From Cordylochernes scorpioides (taxonomy: Eukaryota; Arthropoda; Arachnida; Pseudoscorpiones; Chernetidae), in the NCBI GenBank assembly GCA_030710605.1, contig CP092869.1, forward strand, positions 14,955,143 through 15,019,142: a DNA stretch of 64,000 nucleotides. Direction: 5' to 3'. Shown here in pieces: positions 1,703 to 62,437 of this stretch (position 1 is its first letter; every line of letters starts with the position of its first letter). Under the pieces are notes generated by a model. That model made no database searches, was not told the origin of the DNA, and saw only the letters and a program-made list of their open reading frames with translations. Both the position numbers and the translations under genes were made by a program.

Positions 1703-4700
1703 CAGTAGAACCTCCATGAGAGGACTCCCTGCTAGAGGACACCCCTCTACAAAGGACAGTTTTCATTTGCAAAATTACCATTTTTACTATTTAGCAACTC
1801 TCCGGTAAGAGGACACCCCTCTACAAAGGACAGTTTTCATTTGCAAAATTACCATTTTTACTATTTAGCAACTCTCCGGTAAGAGGACACCCCTCTACAA
1901 AGGACAGTTTTCATTTGCAAAATTACCATTTTTACTATTTAGCAACTCTCCGGTAAGAGGACACCCCTCTACAAAGGACAGTTTTCATTTGCAAAATTAC
2001 CATTTTTACTATTTAGCAACTCTCCGGTAAGAGGACACCCCTCTACAAAGGACAGTTTTCATTTGCAAAATTACCATTTTTACTATTTAGCAACTCTCCG
2101 GTAAGAGGACACCCCTCTACAAAGGACAGTTTTCATTTGCAAAATTACCATTTTTACTATTTAGCAACTCTCCGGTAAGAGGACACCCCTCTACAAAGGA
2201 CAGTTTTCATTTGCAAAATTACCATTTTTACTATTTAGCAACTCTCCGGTAAGAGGACACCCCTCTACAAAGGACAGTTTTCATTTGCAAAATTACCATT
2301 TTTACTATTTAGCAACTCTCCGGTAAGAGGACACCCCTCTACAAAGGACAGTTTTCATTTGCAAAATTACCATTTTTACTATTTAGCAACTCTCCGGTAA
2401 GAGGACACCCCTCTACAAAGGACAGTTTTCATTTGCAAAATTACCATTTTTACTATTTAGCAACTCTCCGGTAAGAGGACACCCCTCTACAAAGGACAGT
2501 TTTCATTTGCAAAATTACCATTTTTACTATTTAGCAACTCTCCGGTAAGAGGACACCCCTCTACAAAGGACAGTTTTCATTTGCAAAATTACCATTTTTA
2601 CTATTTAGCAACTCTCCGGTAAGAGGACACCCCTCTACAAAGGACAGTTTTCATTTGCAAAATTACCATTTTTACTATTTAGCAACTCTCCGGTAAGAGG
2701 ACACCCCTCTACAAAGGACAGTTTTCATTTGCAAAATTACCATTTTTACTATTTAGCAACTCTCCGGTAAGAGGACACCCCTCTACAAAGGACAGTTTTC
2801 ATTTGCAAAATTACCATTTTTACTATTTAGCAACTCTCCGGTAAGAGGACACCCCTCTACAAAGGACAGTTTTCATTTGCAAAATTACCATTTTTACTAT
2901 TTAGCAACTCTCCGGTAAGAGGACACCCCTCTACAAAGGACAGTTTTCATTTGCAAAATTACCATTTTTACTATTTAGCAACTCTCCGGTAAGAGGACAC
3001 CCCTCTACAAAGGACAGTTTTCATTTGCAAAATTACCATTTTTACTATTTAGCAACTCTCCGGTAAGAGGACACCCCTCTACAAAGGACAGTTTTCATTT
3101 GCAAAATTACCATTTTTACTATTTAGCAACTCTCCGGTAAGAGGACACCCCTCTACAAAGGACAGTTTTCATTTGCAAAATTACCATTTTTACTATTTAG
3201 CAATTCTCCGGTAAGAGGACACCCCTCTACAAAAGACAGTTTTCATTTGCAAAATTACCATTTTTACTATTTAGCAACTCTCCGGTAAGAGGACACCCCT
3301 CTACAAAGGACAGTTTTCATTTGCAAAATTACCATTTTTACTATTTAGCAACTCTCCGGTAAGAGGACACCCCTCTACAAAGGACAGTTTTCATTTGCAA
3401 AATTACCATTTTTACTATTTAGCAATTCTCCGGTAAGAGGACACCCCTCTACAAAGGACAGTTTTCATTTGCAAAATTACCATTTTTACTATTAAACAAC
3501 TCTCCGGTAAGAGGACACCCCTCTACAAAGGACAGTTTTCATTTGCAAAATTACCATTTTTACTATTTAGCAACTCTCCGGTAAGAGGACACCCCTCTAC
3601 AAAGGACAGTTTTCATTTGCAAAATTACCATTTTTACTATTAAACAACTCTCCGGTAAGAGGACACCCCTCTACAAAGGACAGTTTTCATTTGCAAAATT
3701 ACCATTTTTACTATTAAACAACTCTCCGGTAAGAGGACACCCCTCTACAAAGGACAGTTTTCATTTGCAAAATTACCATTTTTACTATTAAACAACTCTC
3801 CGGTAAGAGGACACCCCTCTACAAAGGACAGTTTTCATTTGCAAAATTACCATTTTTACTATTAAACAACTCTCCGGTAAGAGGACACCCCTCTACAAAG
3901 GACAGTTTTCATTTACAAAATTACCATTTTTACTATTTAGAAACTCTCCGGTAAGAGGACACCCCTCTACAAAGGACAGTTTTCATTTGCAAAATTACCA
4001 TTTTTACTATTAAACAACTCTCCGGTAAGAGGACACCCCTCTACAAAGGACAGTTTTCATTTGCAAAATTACCATTTTTACTATTAAACAACTCTCCGGT
4101 AAGAGGACACCCCTCTACAAAGGACAGTTTTCATTTGCAAAATTACCATTTTTACTATTTAGCAACTCTCCGGTAAGAGGACACCCCTCTACAAAGGACA
4201 GTTTTCATTTGCAAAATTACCATTTTTACTATTAAACAACTCTCCGGTAAGAGGACACCCCTCTACAAAGGACAGTTTTCATTTGCAAAATTACCATTTT
4301 TACTATTTAGCAACTCTCCGGTAAGAGGACACCCCTCTACAAAGGACAGTTTTCATTTGTAAAATTACCATTTTTACTATTAAACAACTCTCCGGTAAGA
4401 GGAAACCCCTCTACAAAGGACAGTTTTCATTTGCAAAATTACCATTTTTACTATTTAGCAACTCTCCGGTAAGAGGACACCTCTCTACAAAGGACAGTTT
4501 TTACTATTAAACAACTCTCCGGTAAGAGGACACCCCTCTACAAAGGACAGTTTTCATTTGCAAAATTACCATTTTTACTATTTAGCAACTCTCCGGTAAG
4601 AGGACACCCCTCTACAAAGGACAGTTTTCATTTGCAAAATTACCATTTTTACTATTAAACAACTCTCCGGTAAGAGGACACCCCTCTACAAAGGACAGTT

Positions 4701-5688
4701 TTCATTTGCAAAATTACCATTTTTACTATTTAGCAACTCTCCGGTAAGAGGACACCCCTCTACAAAGGACAGTTTTCATTTGCAAAATTACCATTTTTAC
4801 TATTTAGCAACTCTCCGGTAAGAGGACACCCCTCTACAAAGGACAGTTTTCATTTGCAAAATTACCATTTTTACTATTAAACAACTCTCCGGTAAGAGGA
4901 CACCCCTCTACAAAGGACAGTTTTCATTTGCAAAATTACCATTTTTACTATTTAGCAACTCTCCGGTAAGAGGACACCCCTCTACAAAGGACAGTTTTCA
5001 TTTGCAAAATTACCATTTTTACTATTTAGCAACTCTCCGGTAAGAGGACACCCCTCTACAAAGGACAGTTTTCATTTGCAAAATTACCATTTTTACTATT
5101 TAGCAACTCTCCGGTAAGAGGACACCCCTCTACAAAGGACAGTTTTCATTTGCAAAATTACCATTTTTACTATTTAGCAACTCTCCGGTAAGAGGACACC
5201 CCTCTACAAAGGACAGTTTTCATTTGCAAAATTACCATTTTTACTATTTAGCAACTCTCCGGTAAGAGGACACCCCTCTACAAAGGACAGTTTTCATTTG
5301 CAAAATTACCATTTTTACTATTTAGCAACTCTCCGGTAAGAGGACACCCCTCTACAAAGGACAGTTTTCATTTGCAAAATTACCATTTTTACTATTTAGC
5401 AACTCTCCGGTAAGAGGACACCCCTCTACAAAGGACAGTTTTCATTTGCAAAATTACCATTTTTACTATTTAGCAACTCTCCGGTAAGAGGACACCCCTC
5501 TACAAAGGACAGTTTTCATTTGCAAAATTACCATTTTTACTATTTAGCAACTCTCCGGTAAGAGGACACCCCTCTACAAAGGACAGTTTTCATTTGCAAA
5601 ATTACCATTTTTACTATTTAGCAACTCTCCGGTAAGAGGACACCCCTCTACAAAGGACAGTTTTCATTTGCAAATTACCATTTTTACT
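1703..5688. repeat. 74-bp satellite grown inside a MITE-P copy
   Basis: Opens as a normal MITE-P (CAGTAGAACCTCC at 1703) and then repeats an internal 74-bp segment beginning CAACTCTCCGGTAAGAGGAC roughly 53 times to 5688. The MITE's remaining half follows the PLE-I insert at 5821-5927. Most units are identical. From about 3490 to 4880 units ending TTTAGC alternate with units ending TTAAAC, which is a dimeric higher-order pattern. One unit near 4480-4510 has an internal deletion. Copy B has a different array at this site. Confidence 0.95.
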
Positions 5689-10864: not shown

Positions 10865-11080
10865 ATAATAAGGCACACAATTTGGATTATAGATTATAAA
10901 CACAAGGTAATAAGACTAAATCCAAATAAATAATATAAATAGTATATGCATACACACTATTTATTTATTTGGATTCGGTCTTATTGCCTTGTGTTTATAA
11001 TCTATACACACTATTTATTTATTTGGGTTTGGTCTTATTACCTTGTGTTTATAATCTATAATCCAAATTGTGCCTTATCA
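10865..11080. mobile_element. PLE-I fold-back with two tail units
   Basis: Inverted arm, then tail units starting ACACACTATTT at 10952 and 11006 (54-bp period), the last reaching the terminal CCTTATCA. Copy B (61405-61678) has three units. Confidence 0.82.
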
Positions 11081-11382
11081 AAGTAGCAATGGTGTTACCA
11101 AAACGTCACACACTATTTATTTATTTTGATTTGGTCTTATTACTTTGTGTTTACAATTTTTTCTTATTTAGTCTCAATTGAAGGAAGAAAAAAAGTTACT
11201 TTTTTTTTTTTTCTTTTTTACTTTCTTGATTTTACTTTGTAAATAATATAGAATTGTCTTGATAAAGGTAAGTGTACTGCCTGTAACGCCCTTGTGTTTG
11301 TTTGACATTAAGCAGTAAGAAGTAAATATGGAAAGTTTAAAAGAATTTTTTTTTATGCAGCCAACATTTTAAACAGTGTTAT

Positions 11383-11848
11383 GATAAAGCACAATTTGTA
11401 TTATAGATTATAGACACAAAAGGTAATAAGACCTGACCTGGTTGATAGACCTCAGCAAGGGTCCCACTCCAGGGATGATATGGAGGAGCTGTGTCTGTAC
11501 TCATGTTAGAGTCGGCAAAGGTGTCTGCTTCCATGTTAGGAACGGCCTCAAATTACAGGCACAGTCAGACTTTCACCAAAGTGTGCCTGGATCATGGTGC
11601 CATGATCAACGAAAGCTGCACCGCTACATTCCATGAAATCAGGAAATACGACCTAATCCAAATAAATTAATAGTGTGTGACGTTTCAGTAACAGCGTTGT
11701 TACACCATCAGACAAAAGAATAAATGATCTAAATAAACTAATAGTGTGCGACATTTCAGTAACAACGTAACACTATTAATTTATTTGGATTTGGTCTTTT
11801 TTTTTTTATCCTGTAGTTCTAGTCTATAATCCAAATTGTACCTTATCA
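11383..11848. mobile_element. PLE-I pair flanking a SINE-2-like insert
   Basis: Starts GATAAAGCACAATTTG, ends CAAATTGTACCTTATC. Positions about 11436-11650 hold an insert flanked by GACCT that resembles a diverged SINE-2 (TCATGTTAGAGTCGGC, CCATGTTAGGAACGGCC). Also at 61977-62437. Confidence 0.6.
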
Positions 11849-12190
11849 ATAATTTAACCACTTTCTCTCCACCAAATTGCCTACATTATATTTTAACTGC
11901 CCATAATTCAACACTCCAGGAGTTTTTACTGTCATTTAATTGGGTCGTATTACATTTGTAAAGAGAGTCAGAGTGGCTGATTTACCACGAGCTTCTGTTA
12001 GAAACATTAGGCCCAAGCTTGTAGACATGTCTATCCTTCTACAGGTTCATAGGATTGAAGCTACAAGAATAGGCTTTACCTCTACAACTGCTTTAATTGG
12101 AGCATCTACACACATATTTATAGTTTTAAAATGTTTAATAAAGCGCTTGTTAGATAATTTTGTATTGCAATATTTATTTATATATATATA
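11849..12190. other. Unassigned, conserved in both duplicates
   Basis: An 86-codon open frame at 11940-12200 is nearly intact in both copies, but almost all differences I can see between them change an amino acid, so I do not call it coding. It holds AATAAAG near 12138. Confidence 0.45.
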
Positions 12191-25445: not shown

Positions 25446-25538
25446 ACCTTGTGTTTATCACTAAAATAACTTAAAGAACTTGTAGAAATACTTGAAAATT
25501 TAAAGGTGAGATATAAATTTCAAACTTAACACTCTATA

Positions 25539-26238
25539 AACACGAGGTAATAAGACCAAATCCAAATAAATAAATAGTGTGTAACGTTTTGGTAACAGCG
25601 TTGTTACCATCTTCAGACAAAAGTACTGAATGAGAAATGAGAAAATGAGAAGATATTTATCTGAGAAACACAGGATATTATTCTTAGAATTAAAGGTGGA
25701 AAAACACTTGATAATAGTAACTATTTAAAACATGCTGTGGTAAAATTTCTCATTCAGTACTTTTGTCTGAAGATGGTAACAACGCTGTTACCAAAATGTC
25801 ACACACTATTTATTTATTTATTTGGATTTGGTCTTATTACCTTGTTTTATAATCTATAATCCAAATTGTGCCTTATCACACTATTTATTTATTTGGATTT
25901 GGTCTTATTACCTTGTTTTATAATCTATAATCCAAATTGTGCCTTATCACACTATTTATTTATTTGGATTTGGTCTTATTACCTTGTTTTATAATCTATG
26001 ATCCAAATTGTGCCTTATCACACTATTTATTTATTTGGATTTGGTCTTATTACCTTGTTTTATAATCTATAATCCAAATTGTGCCTTATCACACTATTTA
26101 TTTATTTGGATTTGGTCTTATTACCTTGTTTTATAATCTATGATCCAAATTGTGCCTTATCACACTATTTATTTATTTGGATTTGGTCTTATTACCTTGT
26201 TTTATAATCTATGATCCAAATTGTGCCTTATATCTATT
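25539..26238. mobile_element. PLE-I insertion with tail array, 11-bp TSD
   Basis: TSD AACACTCTATA at 25528-25538 and 26239-26249. Inverted arm with a damaged hammerhead (ACCAAAACGTTAC on the minus strand), internal GAAACACAGGATATTATTC region, a plus-strand hammerhead with AAAA for GAAA (25772-25805), then six tail units. No ORF. Confidence 0.85.
25801..26232 (+). repeat. 71-bp array of the PLE-I tail
   Basis: Units start CACACTATTTATTTATTTGG at 25877, 25948, 26019, 26090 and 26161 (the first at 25801 is 4 bp longer). Each ends CCAAATTGTGCCTTAT. The unit equals the sequence between the predicted hammerhead cleavage site and the element's 3' end. Confidence 0.93.
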
Positions 26239-26259
26239 AACACTCTATAATTTGTTCTA

Positions 26260-26571
26260 CTAAGAATGTGGAGTAGATCTCCAGAACCACCTTAATCAAA
26301 GAGGGGAGGTAACCTTGAACCTCCAGTTCAAGGCTCGACTTGCCAAGATTTGCATTCAAATTATACAGCAATCGTTGATGATATCTCCATCTCTCACATT
26401 ATCATTGCTTTAGATACAAATAAATAAGACAGAATCCAAATAAATTAATGGTGTATGACATTTCATTAACTGTGTTGATAAGGCACAATTTGGATTATAG
26501 ATTATAAACACAAGGTAATAAATTCAAGATTAGGATCTGACATGGTAGATGAGATATAGCCACGTTTGAAG
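26260..26571. other. Shared arm anchor and PLE fragments
   Basis: 26265-26400 matches 18405-18560. A PLE-I fragment (26472-26520) and a PLE-II 3' piece (GATATAGCCACGTTTGAAG, 26555) follow. Confidence 0.55.
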
Positions 26572-26620
26572 TGTAAAAGGGAGATCAAGAGGAACGTGGT
26601 GAGTTTCTTTATTGAGAGGT

Positions 26621-26659
26621 ACACAAGCTTTCGGACGTCACCCGTCCTTCATCAGGTGT
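26621..26659 (-). ncRNA. Hammerhead ribozyme, PLE-II type
   Basis: ACAC / CUGAUGA / A-GGAC-GGGUGAC-GUCC / GAAA / GCUU / GUGU. Stem I ACAC-GUGU, stem II four pairs, stem III reduced to a palindromic AGCU, cleavage base U. All core bases present; minimal stem III suggests it would work best as a dimer. Confidence 0.75.
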
Positions 26660-27017
26660 TGACATGAATAATAAGGAGATGCTATATTTATAAGCGACAG
26701 TTTAAAAGTATTAAAAATATTAAAAACAATCTGATGCACGCCCGCGAGAGCACATGCTAATAACAAAATATTTTCAATTTTACTTTGAGTTTGTATAAAG
26801 AGAGGTGAAGACAAAAACAAGAAAAAAAACAAGAAAAATTTTTCTTGTTTTTTTTCTTGTTTTTGTCTTCACCTCTCTTTATACAAACTCAAAGTAAAAT
26901 TGAAAATATTTTGTTATTAGCATGTGCTCTCGCGGGCGTGCATCAGATTGTTTTTAATATTTTTAATACTTTTAAACTGTCGCTTATAAATATAGCATCT
27001 CCTTATTATTCATGTCA

Positions 27018-27056
27018 ACACCTGATGAAGGACGGGTGACGTCCGAAAGCTTGTGT
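27018..27056 (+). ncRNA. Hammerhead ribozyme, PLE-II type
   Basis: Mirror image of 26621-26659 in the palindrome, same fold on the plus strand. Confidence 0.75.
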
Positions 27057-27105
27057 ACCTCTCAATAAAGAAACTCACCACGTTCCTCTTGATCTCCCTT
27101 TTACA

Positions 27106-27300
27106 AGGTAATAAGACCAAATCCAAATAAATAAATAGTGTGTGACGTTTCGGTAACAGCGTTGTCACCACCTTCAGACAAAAGTACTGAATGATTTAGT
27201 CTGAAGATGGTAACAACGCTGTTACAGAAACGTCACACACTATTTATTTGGATTTGGTCTTATTACCTTGTGTTTATAATCTATAATCCAAATTGTGCCT
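27106..27300. mobile_element. PLE-I fold-back pair
   Basis: Minus-strand hammerhead with a changed core base (CUGAAGG, about 27139-27172) and a plus-strand one at 27201-27234. Confidence 0.75.
27201..27234 (+). ncRNA. Hammerhead motif, PLE-I type
   Basis: CUGAAGA, stem II with one broken end pair (UGUUACA), GAAA, ACGU, C; flanked by GATTTAGT. Confidence 0.68.
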
Positions 27301-34765: not shown

Positions 34766-34796
34766 AGCTATAAATTGAATATACCTTAGAGGAATA

Positions 34797-34950
34797 TAAA
34801 GCACAATTTGTATTATAGATTATAGCTACAAGAAAATAAGATCTAATCCAAATAAATGAATAGTGTGTGATGTTTCTGTAACAACGCTGTTACTGAAATG
34901 TCGCACACAATTAATTTATTTGAATTTGATCTTATTTTGTTGTAGCTACC
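34797..34950. mobile_element. PLE-I variant fold-back
   Basis: AAAGCACAATTTGTATTATAG arm and TTATTTTGTTGTAGCTACC arm, turn at TGTAACAACGCTGTTAC. Confidence 0.72.
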
Positions 34951-41049: not shown

Positions 41050-41292
41050 TAAATTCTTGATATGAGTGACTCAAGGATCAATCTTTCAGTCATGGACGGT
41101 ATATTGTAATAGTGGCAGGTAGGGTTCTCTAAATTGAATATATGGACTGTATTCATGATATGCTGGTATATTAGTGATCTTGGGTCTTTGGTTTTGATAT
41201 TGTGTGTGTGTTATTTTATTCTTGTTTCTTATTTTTCTGCTGGTTTCACCAACATAAATGTCTTGGCAATCTGAACATGATATTAAATAGAT
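41050..41292 (-). pseudogene. Penelope-like GIY-YIG endonuclease relic, second family
   Basis: Minus strand from 41292: IYLISCSDCQDIYVGETSRK, with the GIY-like strand, the Cys pair typical of PLE endonucleases (SCSDC), the YVG motif and the catalytic Arg region. After a frame shift: HIMNTVHIFNLENPT and NIPSMTERLILESLISRI, matching the domain end with the conserved Glu (LILES). About 280 bp downstream on the same strand is the hammerhead remnant at 40741-40770. Upstream minus-strand sequence to 41440 may be the RT-EN linker. The RT is absent. Confidence 0.82.
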
Positions 41293-41853
41293 GGCATTTT
41301 TTTTTCTGTTGGGGATTCTGATTTATAGGTGGTTTTGTGATGGGAATTCTGAGGATATTTCCAATTGTTCTAGGGCTGCGGAAGATAAACCTTATGCCTG
41401 TTTTCTTAAGTTTTTTAACTCATCGTTATAGAAAGTGGGTCTGTAGTGAGGTCTGGACACATGTGAGAGATGGTAAATGTTGGCAACAAGTTCAAGGTAA
41501 ACCAGAGGAAATTGGCACATTGCTTGCTGCTACTGCCAATGTTGTCCCATCCTAATTAGGAAAGGATCCAGTGGCCAAACCAGGCTAGGAGAGGAATTCA
41601 AGAAATCTCAAGTTGAACAATCACCTCGAGAGGTATGGAGAACAAAATTGTGAGGCAAAGAAAGTTTCTTTTAGGTTTTTATATATATATATATATATAT
41701 TATATAAATAAAAAATATATATTTTCCGTTTTATTTTCGATCATGTTGAGGATTATGGTAATGCAGTCGTCGCAAAAATATTTAAAAGAGTTTTGATTAG
41801 GGATTTCTTTAATTGAGCTTAAGGACTATATAAAAAAAAACATTATTTGGTAA
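41293..41853. other. Probable PLE linker remnant, then unassigned
   Basis: 41293-41440 minus has protein-like stretches with stops (DELKNLRKQA, ALEQLEISSEFPSQN). 41450-41850 is unassigned with a TA microsatellite at 41684-41702. Confidence 0.4.
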
Positions 41854-43263
41854 AAGTACTGCCTTGGCTACACCCTGGATCCAGAAATTAACTCCAGTAA
41901 ACATATTGAAGAAGTTATTAGAAAAGGAAGAGACCGACTAAAAATCCTGAAATATATTTCAGGAAGAGAGTGGGGAGCCGATGCAACCACACTAAAATTA
42001 ACTTACACATCTCTAATTAGACCTATCCTGGAATATGGATATCAAATCTATGGTACAGCATCTGAAACAAATCTAAAATCACTGGAAAGGATACAACTAA
42101 GTGCAGCTAGAATTATTACAGGTCTTCGAAATACCTGCCCTAATGATATTGTACTTTACGAGGCAGACATTATGCCCTTAAAGGATAGAAGAAGCTACAA
42201 TCTGCCAAAATATATAAACAAAATCAAGAGTTATGGAAACAAACACAGAACTTCCAATTACATACTTAATTGGGAATCCAATCTAAGACTCAAAAAAGAA
42301 GGCCCTCTCCACCTGGCCAAAAGAAATGGATTTTTAAAATATAAAGTAGAAAAAAATTATTTATCAGAAAAAATTTCTCCATGCGAACCATTACAAAATG
42401 TTATTTTTAATGCCTCTTTAAATGAACCCACCAACAAACAATGCTAAAATCCAGAATACTTAAAACAATTATCATTAGAAATAATTAATAACATTCCTAA
42501 AAATGCAATAACTATTTATACCGATGGTAGCAGAGACGAGCTAGGACACACTGGCAGTGGCTGTCTCATCAAAACCACAAATGGCATTGAGAAAATGAAC
42601 AGAAGAAACCCAGATTTTTGCTCAGTCTTCAGATCAGAACTTATAGCCATCTATGAAGCCTTAAAATCCATCAGAAATACTAATTATCAAGATATCTGGA
42701 TTCTTACTGATAGTAGAAGTGCCATACAACACTTGAGTCACACAGGGGAACTCAGAGACAAAGTAAGCAGGAACATAATTGACTATCTCCAAAAACTCTC
42801 AAATACCTCAAAAATTCACCTTCAATGGATACCCTCACATGTTGGAATTGAAGGCAATGAAGCTGCTGATGTGCTAGCGAAAAAAGGCACAAAAGAACCC
42901 TTGCCACAGAAAAATAAACTTACTTTTAAAGAAATAGAGACAGTAGCCAAAACAAAAATAAACAAGAACTGGAGGATCCCACCTAAGCACAGTTGGTACA
43001 GTGGAGTGAACCCAGGAGGAGCTCTGAACATCAGAAATAGACAGCATCAAACAACACTAACAAGATTTAGAACAGGCCATCTCAAGCCATTGAAGATAGA
43101 AAATAATAACAAAATCTACCCCACTTGCCCAAAATGTAGCTTGGCACCTGCAGCTCCAGAACACATTTTGGCTTGCATTAGATGCACTAAACGGGACCTT
43201 TGGGAGAGGCCGCTGCTCATCATAAAACAGCTCGAGGAGCATGAACTCATGGAATTCGTGTAA
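41854..43263 (+). pseudogene. LINE-C reverse transcriptase C-terminus plus RNase H
   Basis: One frame from 41854, broken only by a TAA at 42445-42447. The first part (LGYTLDPEINSSKHIEEV, WGADATTLKLTYTSLIRPIL, GTASETNLKSLERIQLSAAR) is the RT thumb/connection of Jockey/I-group LINEs. RNase H follows with all four acidic residues: IYTDGS, FRSELIAIYEAL, ILTDSRSAIQHL, WIPSHVGIEGNEAADVLAKK. The C-terminus TRFRTGHLKPL...CPKC...PEHILACI matches the same module in LINE-A. Ends with stop and a (CAA)n tail at 43285-43300. 5'-truncated, fairly young, inactive. Confidence 0.92.
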
Positions 43264-43763: not shown

Positions 43764-43865
43764 CACAATTTGGATTATAGATTATAAACACAAGGAAATA
43801 AGACCAAATCCAATACACACTATTTATTTATTTGGATTTGGTCTTTTTACCTTGTGTTTATAAAC
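43764..43865. mobile_element. PLE-I fold-back lacking the ribozyme
   Basis: ATGGCACAATTTGGATTATAG arm reaches AAATCCAAT and switches directly to ACACACTATTT at 43815. Confidence 0.8.
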
Positions 43866-52882: not shown

Positions 52883-53071
52883 GTGATAAGCTTCTTCATC
52901 AGAAAACAGTATTTATCACAAGCTGTGTAAGTTATTTATATGGAGCCCATATATAAGATTCTTTATGACCATCTTCTAGCCATTTTACAATTGGATCTCA
53001 CAGTAGCTATGGAGAATTTGTTGTACAATTTGATCATCTCAGGTTATCAAGCTCCCTGTATTTTATTGATA
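52883..53071. other. Unassigned
   Basis: Nothing recognised. Confidence 0.35.
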
Positions 53072-53910
53072 CAGTAGAACCTCCATGAGAGGCCACTCCG
53101 GCTAGAGGACACCTCTCTATAAAGGACAGTTTCCATCACCAATACAGTAGAACCTCCATGAGAGGACACTCCGGCTAGAGGACACCTCTCTACAAAGGAC
53201 AGTTTCCATCACCAATACAGTAGAACCTCCATGAGAGGACACTCCGGCTAGAGGAAACCTCTCTACAAAGGACAGTTTCCATTACCAATACAGTAGAACC
53301 TCCATGAGAGGACACTCCGGCTAGAGGACACCTCTCTACAAAGGACAATTTCCATCACCAATACAGTAGAACATTACTCCATGAGAGGACACTCTGGCTA
53401 AAGAACACCTCTCTACAAAGGTCAGTTTTCATCACCAATACAGTAGAACCTCCATGAGAGGACACTCCGGCTAAAGAACACCTCCCTACAAAGGACAATT
53501 TCCATCACCCATACAGTAGAACCTCCATGAGAGGACACTCTGGCTAAAGAACACCTCTCTACAAAGGTCAGTTTTCATCACCAATACAGTAGAACCTCCA
53601 TGAGAGGACACTCCGGCTAAAGAACACCTCCCTACAAAGGACAATTTCCATCACCCATACAGTAGAACCTCCATGTGAGGACACTCCGGCTAAAGAACAC
53701 CTCTCTACAAAGGACAGTTTCCATTACCAATACAGTAGAACCTCCATGTGAGGACACTCCGGCTAGAGGACACCTATCTATAAAGGACAAATTTCATTGT
53801 CAAAAAATTACCATTTTTACTATTTAACAACTCTCCGGGAAGAGGACACCTCTTCGTAAAGGATACTTTTTCTCTGCAACTAGGTGTCCTTTACTGAGAG
53901 GTTTTACTGT
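53072..53910. repeat. 73-bp MITE-P array
   Basis: Units start CAGTAGAACCTCCATGAGAG at 53072, 53145, 53218, 53291, 53364, 53441, 53514, 53587, 53660 and 53733; the last runs into the MITE's right half. Units at 53364/53514 and 53441/53587 share private variants, so a two-unit block was duplicated. Confidence 0.95.
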
Positions 53911-57289: not shown

Positions 57290-58215
57290 TAGTAGAACAA
57301 CCTCCATGAGAGGACACCTGGGCTAGAGGACACCTCTCTATAAAGGACAGTTTTCATCACCAATACAGTAGAACCTCCATGAGAGGACACCTCTATATAA
57401 AGGACAGTTTTCATCACCAATACAGTAGAACCTCCATGAGAGGACACCTCTCTATAAAGGACAGTTTTCATCACCAATACAGTAGAACCTCCATGAGAGG
57501 ACACCTCTCTATAAAGGACAGTTTTCATCACCAATACAGTAGAACCTCCATGAGAGGACACCTCTCTATAAAGGACAGTTTTCATCACCAATACAGTAGA
57601 ACCTCCATGAGAGGACACCTCTCTATAAAGGACAGTTTTCATCACCAATACAGTAGAACCTCCATGAGAGGACACCTCTCTATAAAGGACAGTTTTCATC
57701 ACCAATACAGTAGAACCTCCATGAGAGGACACCTCTCTATAAAGGACAGTTTTCATCACCAATACAGTAGAACCTCCATGAGAGGACACCTCTCTATAAA
57801 GGACAGTTTTCATCACCAATACAGTAGAACCTCCATGAGAGGACACCTCTCTATAAAGGACAGTTTTCATCACCAATACAGTAGAACCTCCATGAGAGGA
57901 CACCTCTCTATAAAGGACAGTTTTCATCACCAATACAGTAGAACCTCCATGAGAGGACACCTCTCTATAAAGGACAGTTTTCATCACCAATACAGTAGAA
58001 CCTCCATGAGAGGACACCTCTCTATAAAGGACAGTTTTCATCACCAATACAGTAGAACCTCCATGAGAGGACACCTGTGTTAGAGGACACCTCTCTATAA
58101 AGAACAGTTTTCATTTGCAAAATTACCATTTTTACTATTTAGCAACTCTCCAGTAAGATGACACCTCTCTCTAAAGGACACTTTTGCATTTCAATTAGGT
58201 GTCCTTTACAGGGAG
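57290..58215. repeat. 57-bp MITE-P array
   Basis: Units CAGTAGAACCTCCATGAGAG / GACACCTCTCTATAAAGGAC / AGTTTTCATCACCAATA repeat about 13 times from 57309 to 58070, nearly identical. Because 57 is divisible by three, long frames stay open on both strands (267 and 234 codons); these are not genes. The MITE's right half follows to 58215. Confidence 0.95.
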
Positions 58216-60357: not shown

Positions 60358-60602
60358 TATGATAAGGTACAATTTGGATTATAGATTAGAAACACAAACT
60401 AACAAGACCAAATCCAAATTAATAAATTTGTGTGATATTTCTGTAACAATGTTGTTATTAATAAGACACAATTTGGATTATAGATTATAAATACAAAGTA
60501 ATAAGACCAAATCCAAATAAATAATCCAACACACTATTTATTTATTTGGATTTGGTCTTATTACAGATTATAGTAAAAGAAAATAAGACCTAATCCAAAT
60601 AA
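60358..60602. mobile_element. PLE-I pieces
   Basis: A fragment at 60361-60460; a fold-back at 60463-60566 whose second arm starts ACACACTATTTATT at 60529; then a variant arm. Confidence 0.72.
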
Positions 60603-61404: not shown

Positions 61405-61678
61405 CCATATAATAAGGCACACAATTTGGATTATAGATTATAAACACGGGGTAATAAGACTAAATCCAAATAAATAATATAAATAGTATATGCATACACA
61501 CTATTTATTTATTTGGATTCGGTCTTATTGCCTTGTGTTTATAATCTATACACACTATTTATTTATTTGGGTTTGGTCTTATTACCTTGTGTTTATAATC
61601 TATACACACTATTTATTTATTTGGGTTAGGTCTTATTACCTTGTTTTTATAATCTATAATCCAAATTGTGCCTTATCA
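61405..61678. mobile_element. PLE-I fold-back with three tail units
   Basis: Tail units start ACACACTATTT at 61496, 61550 and 61604 (54-bp period); one more than copy A. Confidence 0.85.
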
Positions 61679-61971
61679 AAGTAGCAATGCTGTTACCAAA
61701 ACGTCACACACTATTTATTTATTTTGATTTGGTCTTATTACTTTGTGTTTACAATTTTTTCTTATTTAGTCTCAATTGAAGGAAGAAAAAAAAGTTACTT
61801 TTTTTACTTTCTTGATTTTACTTTGTAAATAATATAGAATTGTCTTGATAAAGGTAAGTGTAATGCCTGTAACGCCCTTGTGTTTGTTTGACATTAAGCA
61901 GTAAGAAGTAAATATGGAAAGTTTAAAAGAATTTTTTTTTTTATGCAGCCAACATTTTAAACAGTGTTATG
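61679..61971. other. PLE-I remnant and unassigned duplicated sequence
   Basis: 61690-61755 is a PLE-I tail piece; the rest is the partner of 11160-11380. Confidence 0.45.
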
Positions 61972-62437
61972 ATAAAGCACAATTTGTATTATATATTATA
62001 GACACAAGGTAATAAGACCGGACCTGGTTGATAGACCTCAGCAAGGGTCCCACTCCAGGGATATGGAGGAGCTGTGTCTGTACTCATGTTAGAGTCAGCA
62101 GCAAAGGTGTCTGCTTCCATGTTAGGAACGGCCTCAAATTACAGGAAAATTCAGACTTTCAACAAAGTGTGCCTGGATCATGGTGCCATGATCAACGAAA
62201 GCTGCACCCCTCGACCCCATTCCATGAGATCAGGAAATACGACCTAATCCAAATAAATTAATAGTGTGTGACGTTTCAGTAACAGCGTTGTTACCATTAG
62301 ACAAAGGAATAAATGATCTAAATAAATTAATAGTGTGCGACATTTCAGTAACAGCGTAACACTATTAATTTATTTGGATTTGGTCTTTTTTTTTTATCCT
62401 ATAGTTCTAGTCTATAATCCAAATTGTACCTTATCAA
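61972..62437. mobile_element. PLE-I pair flanking a SINE-2-like insert
   Basis: Partner of 11383-11848; insert at about 62020-62242. Confidence 0.6.

Follow-up and report, generated by a model that had tools for sequence, protein, structure and literature searches.

Copies of a short repeat family in the genome of the pseudoscorpion Cordylochernes scorpioides break off in excess at the cleavage site predicted for the hammerhead-like core that precedes the repeat, the peak of breaks coinciding with that site among the four positions counted (+1, +3, -2 and -5). Position 1 is defined here as the first base past the predicted cut (GTC^ACACAC), with the tail extending from there to around position 75 (CCTTATCA), and a break is a copy that matches the tail from a given position onward and differs from the consensus at the three preceding bases. 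In the genome searched (2.62 Gb, 24 contigs) 601 breaks (274 + 327) lie directly before ACACAC, compared with 265 (148 + 117) at +3, 67 (33 + 34) at -5 and 47 (26 + 21) at -2, where the pattern admitted fewer mismatching bases on account of CpG decay. After correction for composition, with flanks taken as 64% A+T and pass rates of 0.457 (+1), 0.457 (+3), 0.170 (-2) and 0.379 (-5), the respective figures are about 1314, 580, 276 and 177. The first-pass annotation of this DNA had predicted that tail units throughout the genome would tend to start at ACACAC, and this prediction held when run as pattern counts, the distribution being neither flat nor peaking elsewhere among the four positions.

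The patterns for -2 and -5 demand more matching bases than that for +1. This does not explain the difference in counts, since TCACACAC keeps 44 and AYRTCACACAC keeps 43 of the 51 local copies with an intact ACACAC tail. Chance was rejected as a cause, the reversed-pattern control giving 0 matches in seven genome searches, and so was slippage in the CA run, since lengthening the run places C at -1 and shortening it destroys ACACAC, neither of which the +1 pattern admits. Inflation of the +1 count by arrays was rejected as well, because the 100 places listed of the 601 fall into 98 clusters at 1 kb (87 at 100 kb). In a second subfamily (GATGATGG) 50 breaks (25 + 25) were counted at position 1, a figure from that position alone. 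Two properties of the counts speak against a ribozyme cut as their source: the +1 class is rare, as its 601 places compare with 162,022 for the tail core, which was searched with a different pattern, and the +3 count is high.

The 162,022 matches (81,075 + 80,947) were obtained with a 26-nt tail core at up to 2 mismatches, for which the reversed control gave 0; sampling of 200 kb (twenty 10-kb stretches at 30.0 Mb on contigs C1-C20) gave 6 matches, and exact-pattern scans of viral and of prokaryote collections gave 0 hits each. Core plus tail has 88 nhmmer matches at E up to 0.1 in the window, by which is meant the whole stretch of 64,000 nucleotides that was analysed (36% GC, 200 N). The protein encoded at 42448-43260 of the window has 97% identity to one from Cordylochernes scorpioides. 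The fetched tail copies are often inverted pairs, of which 70 are distinct, and target-site duplications are apparent from the at least 11 flanking bases common to 18 of the 70 pairs as against 24 of 4830 mismatched pairs. The 3′ ends fall into two classes, at tail positions 73-75 (67 of 189 ends) and at 38-53 (94 of 189), the latter class being broad and partly affected by copies that carry a 7-bp deletion.

Hammerhead cores consist of CUGANGA and GAAA with a cut after NUH, and the G before AAA is required. The consensus CTGANGAT-stem II-GAAACGTC is found in most of 31 copies, all of them preselected for TGTCTGANGATGG, and stem II carries the ATG of a GATGG motif, whose distance to the predicted cut is 28 nt. 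A search of Rfam at E up to 10 gave no hammerhead match to the family core. Inverted arms are often joined inside the palindromic stem II, GGTAACAACGCTGTTACC (for example L010, L011, L029 and window 34796-34948), as if two cDNAs had annealed there. Because no coding element could be linked to the tail, we can only infer that it belongs to a Penelope-like retroelement as its 3′ tail; a minimal hammerhead-like core, an ATG at stem II, two 3′ end classes, inverted arms and target-site duplications all fit such an element. A degenerate GIY-YIG-like piece is found at 41239-41322 on the minus strand (Pfam E 0.012, 16.3 bits against a cut-off of 22.6) with no adjoining tail, and a protein search with this piece for a full-length Penelope relative found nothing.

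At the level of individual insertions, the starts of 154 de-duplicated local copies were placed at +1 in 6 cases (two of them in one array), at -2 in 5 (one being the reported array described below), at -1 in 2, at 3 in 4, at 5 in 3 and at 6 in 3, with 13 spread across the twelve positions from -14 to -3 and 29 at -27 to -24, where palindromic stem II joins arms. An earlier script lacking the de-duplication clean-up (198 copies) gave similar figures. The local peak at +1 is modest and the claim therefore rests on the genome counts. The copies do illustrate what such insertions look like: in L019 two inverted tails that each start at position 1 are separated by TT and enclosed in a 13-bp target-site duplication; L058 has arms from +1 and -27 and a 13-bp duplication; L024 has a plus arm from -2, a minus arm to -83 and a 14-bp duplication; and L061 has an arm from -2 and a 13-bp duplication. 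Symmetric trimming of a hairpin tip would not readily yield unequal arms such as those of L058 and L024.

A reading in which ribozyme-cut RNA yields run-off copies of the tail, with copy number in arrays changed later as DNA, is given an even chance of being right. Under this proposal reverse transcription would initiate internally on the RNA, at around tail position 75 or 38-53, and proceed toward the RNA 5′ end. On uncut RNA copying would pass the hammerhead-like core and enter the element body, while on ribozyme-cut RNA it would run off at position 1 (ACACAC), leaving tail-only cDNA arms that would usually end up as inverted pairs with target-site duplications. Rarely, a template jump from the run-off end to another start would produce units joined head to tail, and arrays like the reported one would then have altered their unit number as DNA. 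Directly observed are the surplus of breaks at the predicted cut across the genome, both 3′ end classes, the target-site duplications and the differing unit numbers of duplicated loci; what we infer is ribozyme cleavage in vivo, run-off and template jumping.

The reported array and its surroundings comprise the following features.

25526..25539, unstranded: left member of a pair of 14-bp direct repeats, TTAACACTCTATAA, taken as a target-site duplication
25534..25624, minus strand: inverted arm, tail plus hammerhead-like core in the opposite orientation (nhmmer match)
25760..25806, plus strand: mutated hammerhead-like core, AAAATGTC for GAAACGTC (sequence)
25773-25775, plus strand: ATG of GATGG in the array's core (sequence)
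25800..25801, plus strand: cleavage site predicted for an intact core, between the two bases (from the hammerhead core)
25802..25876, plus strand: first tail unit, 75 bp with an additional ATTT, running on directly from the upstream core
25877..26231, plus strand: five core-less 71-bp tail units, starting at 25877, 25948, 26019, 26090 and 26161
26237..26250, unstranded: right copy of the 14-bp direct repeat (sequence comparison)

Tandem Repeats Finder confirmed the array (period 71, 5.9 copies, 99% matches, 25811-26231), which gives six head-to-tail units over 25802-26231 when cut at CACACTATTT; of the 71-bp units described in the first-pass annotation five are real, the first unit being 75 bp long. 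Upstream of the first unit come the hammerhead-like core and then the inverted arm, without interruption, and the last unit ends in CCTTAT at 26231, followed by ATCTA (26232-26236) and the right direct repeat. The whole insertion sits between the 14-bp direct repeats in what looks like a target-site duplication, and as a control for chance at least 14 bases were shared in 101 of at most 20,000 random draws of two 41-base segments from the window.

The same annotation had the units begin at the predicted cut. In position this is nearly so, the cut after GTC (25800/25801) falling one base 5′ of the unit start, and it is weakened on two counts, an ambiguous junction and a mutated core. The unit junction CCTTATCACACTATTT contains a TCA that also occurs in the usual element end (CCTTATCA) and in the site (GTCACAC), so that the junction can be set at any of several bases near the cut: one script placed it at +2 and a later one, which allows a shorter CA run, at -2. 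The core at this locus reads GTTACCAAAATGTC rather than GAAACGTC, with AAAATGTC occupying 25793-25800 where an intact GAAA after stem II and an intact site were looked for and not found in the reported copy. The array copy is thus not an intact ribozyme, and by its core sequence it would not be expected to cut itself, whereas a source copy would have to.

The window holds two further tail arrays and two single arms that bear on this question.

10950..11060, plus strand: sister array with a 54-bp unit and two starts (10952, 11006), each at ACACAC
61494..61658, plus strand: duplicate of the sister array, 54-bp unit, three starts (61496, 61550, 61604)
43812..43865, plus strand: single tail arm with an exact ACACAC start, in an inverted pair with a 15-bp flanking repeat (one mismatch)
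60528..60564, plus strand: single tail arm with an exact ACACAC start, in an inverted pair

The 54-bp units start exactly at ACACAC and end at ATAATCTAT, so that the 3′ end of the unit is not fixed. The two arrays lie in segmental duplicates (10868-11850 and 61414-62435), the former holding two starts and the latter three. In the reported array a private variant, ACCTTGTTTTATAATC, is present in all six units and absent from the inverted arm and from the rest of the sample (45 other looser-pattern matches). This variant and the two against three units of the duplicated loci point to a change of copy number at the DNA level after insertion, and the array that prompted the study probably grew mainly by ordinary DNA duplication. 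With its mutated core, its TCA-ambiguous junction, its private variant and sister loci that differ in unit number, the array itself is weak evidence for the use of the ribozyme.

DNA-level change is our own view of the unit number; as an account of the first joint it becomes a rival. Slippage or unequal exchange through the TCA common to the CCTTATCA end and GTCACAC would generate the array with no cut RNA at all, and the shared TCA, the variant confined to the six units and missing from the inverted arm, and the differing duplicates all favour it. On the other hand, the 54-bp arrays share the start place despite another 3′ end and no TCA, single arms that are not in tandem also start at the cut, and the genome excess is not made by arrays; an origin by DNA events only is considered unlikely, with perhaps one chance in a handful or slightly better. 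Tandem joints are in any case rare, the strict joint pattern giving 325 genome matches (172 + 153) against the 162,022 of the tail core, and they do not all begin at the predicted cut. Nine joint sequences, taken from seven loci, show a start close to position 1 at three loci (one of them base-changed, one after TCT); the other loci start at -2, at -8 and at about 7, and one is ambiguous. Joint lengths range from 37 to 62 at 40 loci among the matches listed and lie at 46-51 in 20 of the 40; joints that start at position 1 are calculated to give 47-49, shifted by 4 in either direction for each ATTT. Given this spread the joints are centred near the site yet broad. Two large tail arrays on one contig (C4:113061537-113063880 and 113129220-113130863) have mostly 72- and 74-bp spacing and lie on opposite strands about 67 kb apart.

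A somewhat less probable alternative is that a single core-less subfamily, such as an inverted tail pair, spread alone and made the genome excess, so that the peak would record one ancient event. Segmental duplicates do exist, and the 601 places, counted by the tail pattern, may share an upstream sequence. Against it, the local copies at +1 (L019, L058 and those at 10968, 43831 and 60545 in the window) differ in upstream sequence and partner arm, and the second subfamily also has its 50 breaks at +1, counted at that one position. Stalling of the reverse transcriptase at the folded core, without cleavage, is improbable: the predicted core folds with minimum energies of -11.3 and -15.2 kcal/mol in the two subfamilies, but the predicted fold puts the 3′ strand of its outer stem inside ACACAC, which would place a stall near +5 to +7 and not at +1, and the -11.3 fold is no better than many shuffles (z -1.49).

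Least probable is the explanation first offered for the array, in which the unit equals the RNA between self-cleavage and the RNA 3′ end, ligated or circularized and copied repeatedly, even though the units are near identical and animal retrozymes form circles (PMC7229834); there is no second ribozyme to set a 3′ end, the units differ in where they end (54 and 71 bp), as internal initiation predicts, and tandem joints are rare. The two end classes and the findings of PMC11167929 favour an internal start of reverse transcription as the right end of the unit, and this makes ligation or a circle unnecessary, while the template jump, offered at the same time, is retained as a proposal for the rare joints. 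An animal retrozyme was likewise rejected, as the 71-bp units have no hammerhead core.

Hammerheads in Penelope-like elements are already known, as three papers describe (PMC6155905, PMC7761336, PMC7229834). The closest comparison is PAc of Anolis carolinensis, in which reverse transcription initiates within the RNA at two adjacent sites (PMC11167929). The PAc hammerhead has the start of the ORF in its stem II, an optional tail of 30-40 bp separates its two start sites, and both target strands are cut and extended (PMC11167929); the pseudoscorpion family, with an ATG at stem II of a hammerhead-like core, resembles it in these respects. The cut lies 26 bp after the start codon in PAc (PMC11167929), and the predicted cut of the pseudoscorpion family lies 28 nt after the A of ATG. 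The internal start of reverse transcription lies about 111-118 bp into the ORF in PAc (PMC11167929), and in the pseudoscorpion the distance from the A of ATG to the tail end is about 103 nt. In contrast to PAc, no coding element could be linked to the pseudoscorpion family. Three observations on PAc count against a role for ribozyme-cut RNA: mutants of the ribozyme left insertion in vitro unchanged, the ribozyme cut only with added protein, and no RNA-seq reads started or stopped at the presumed cut (PMC11167929). The systems thus differ in that neither insertion ends nor RNA ends were found at the cut of PAc, which can dispense with cleavage in vitro (PMC11167929), whereas the pseudoscorpion has an excess of insertion ends at the predicted cut.

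Two other systems are instructive. Animal retrozymes resemble the pseudoscorpion tails in being short, non-coding tandem repeats tied to type I hammerheads or, in the pseudoscorpion, to a hammerhead-like core, but their units of about 150-450 bp each hold a hammerhead (PMC7229834), and the 71- and 54-bp units of the pseudoscorpion hold none. R2 elements with an HDV-like ribozyme share with the tails a self-cleavage site, predicted in the case of the tails, that is the boundary of insertion; the R2 ribozyme frees the element's own 5′ end (PMC3774820), whereas a cut in the pseudoscorpion family would separate the tail from the element body.

It is somewhat short of an even chance that the minimal hammerhead of Penelope-like elements acts in vivo in retrotransposition, cut templates being dead ends that are fossilised as tail-only insertions ending at the cut. 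If true, the ribozyme would be a switch that parts the start of reverse transcription from the element body and so limits full-length insertion. In a genome with 162,022 tail matches, a surplus of insertion ends where the cut is predicted would offer a cheap in vivo readout of ribozyme use, repeatable by end mapping in other animal genomes with such elements; a text search of the literature that covered few subscription papers brought to notice no paper that maps insertion ends to the hammerhead cut of Penelope-like elements.

The window also contains a second foldback family (26540-27110 and, on the minus strand, around 28187) in three copies, with a hammerhead-like core of its own (CACCTGATGAAGGACGGGTGACGTCCGAAAGCTTGTGTACC) and a cut predicted after GAAAGCTT, i.e. 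GAAAGCTT^GTGTACC. Long tandem arrays at 1734-5688, 53069-53795 and 57325-58076, with units of 74, 73 and 57 bp that resemble one another in sequence (AGAGGACACC...), are unrelated to the tail family.
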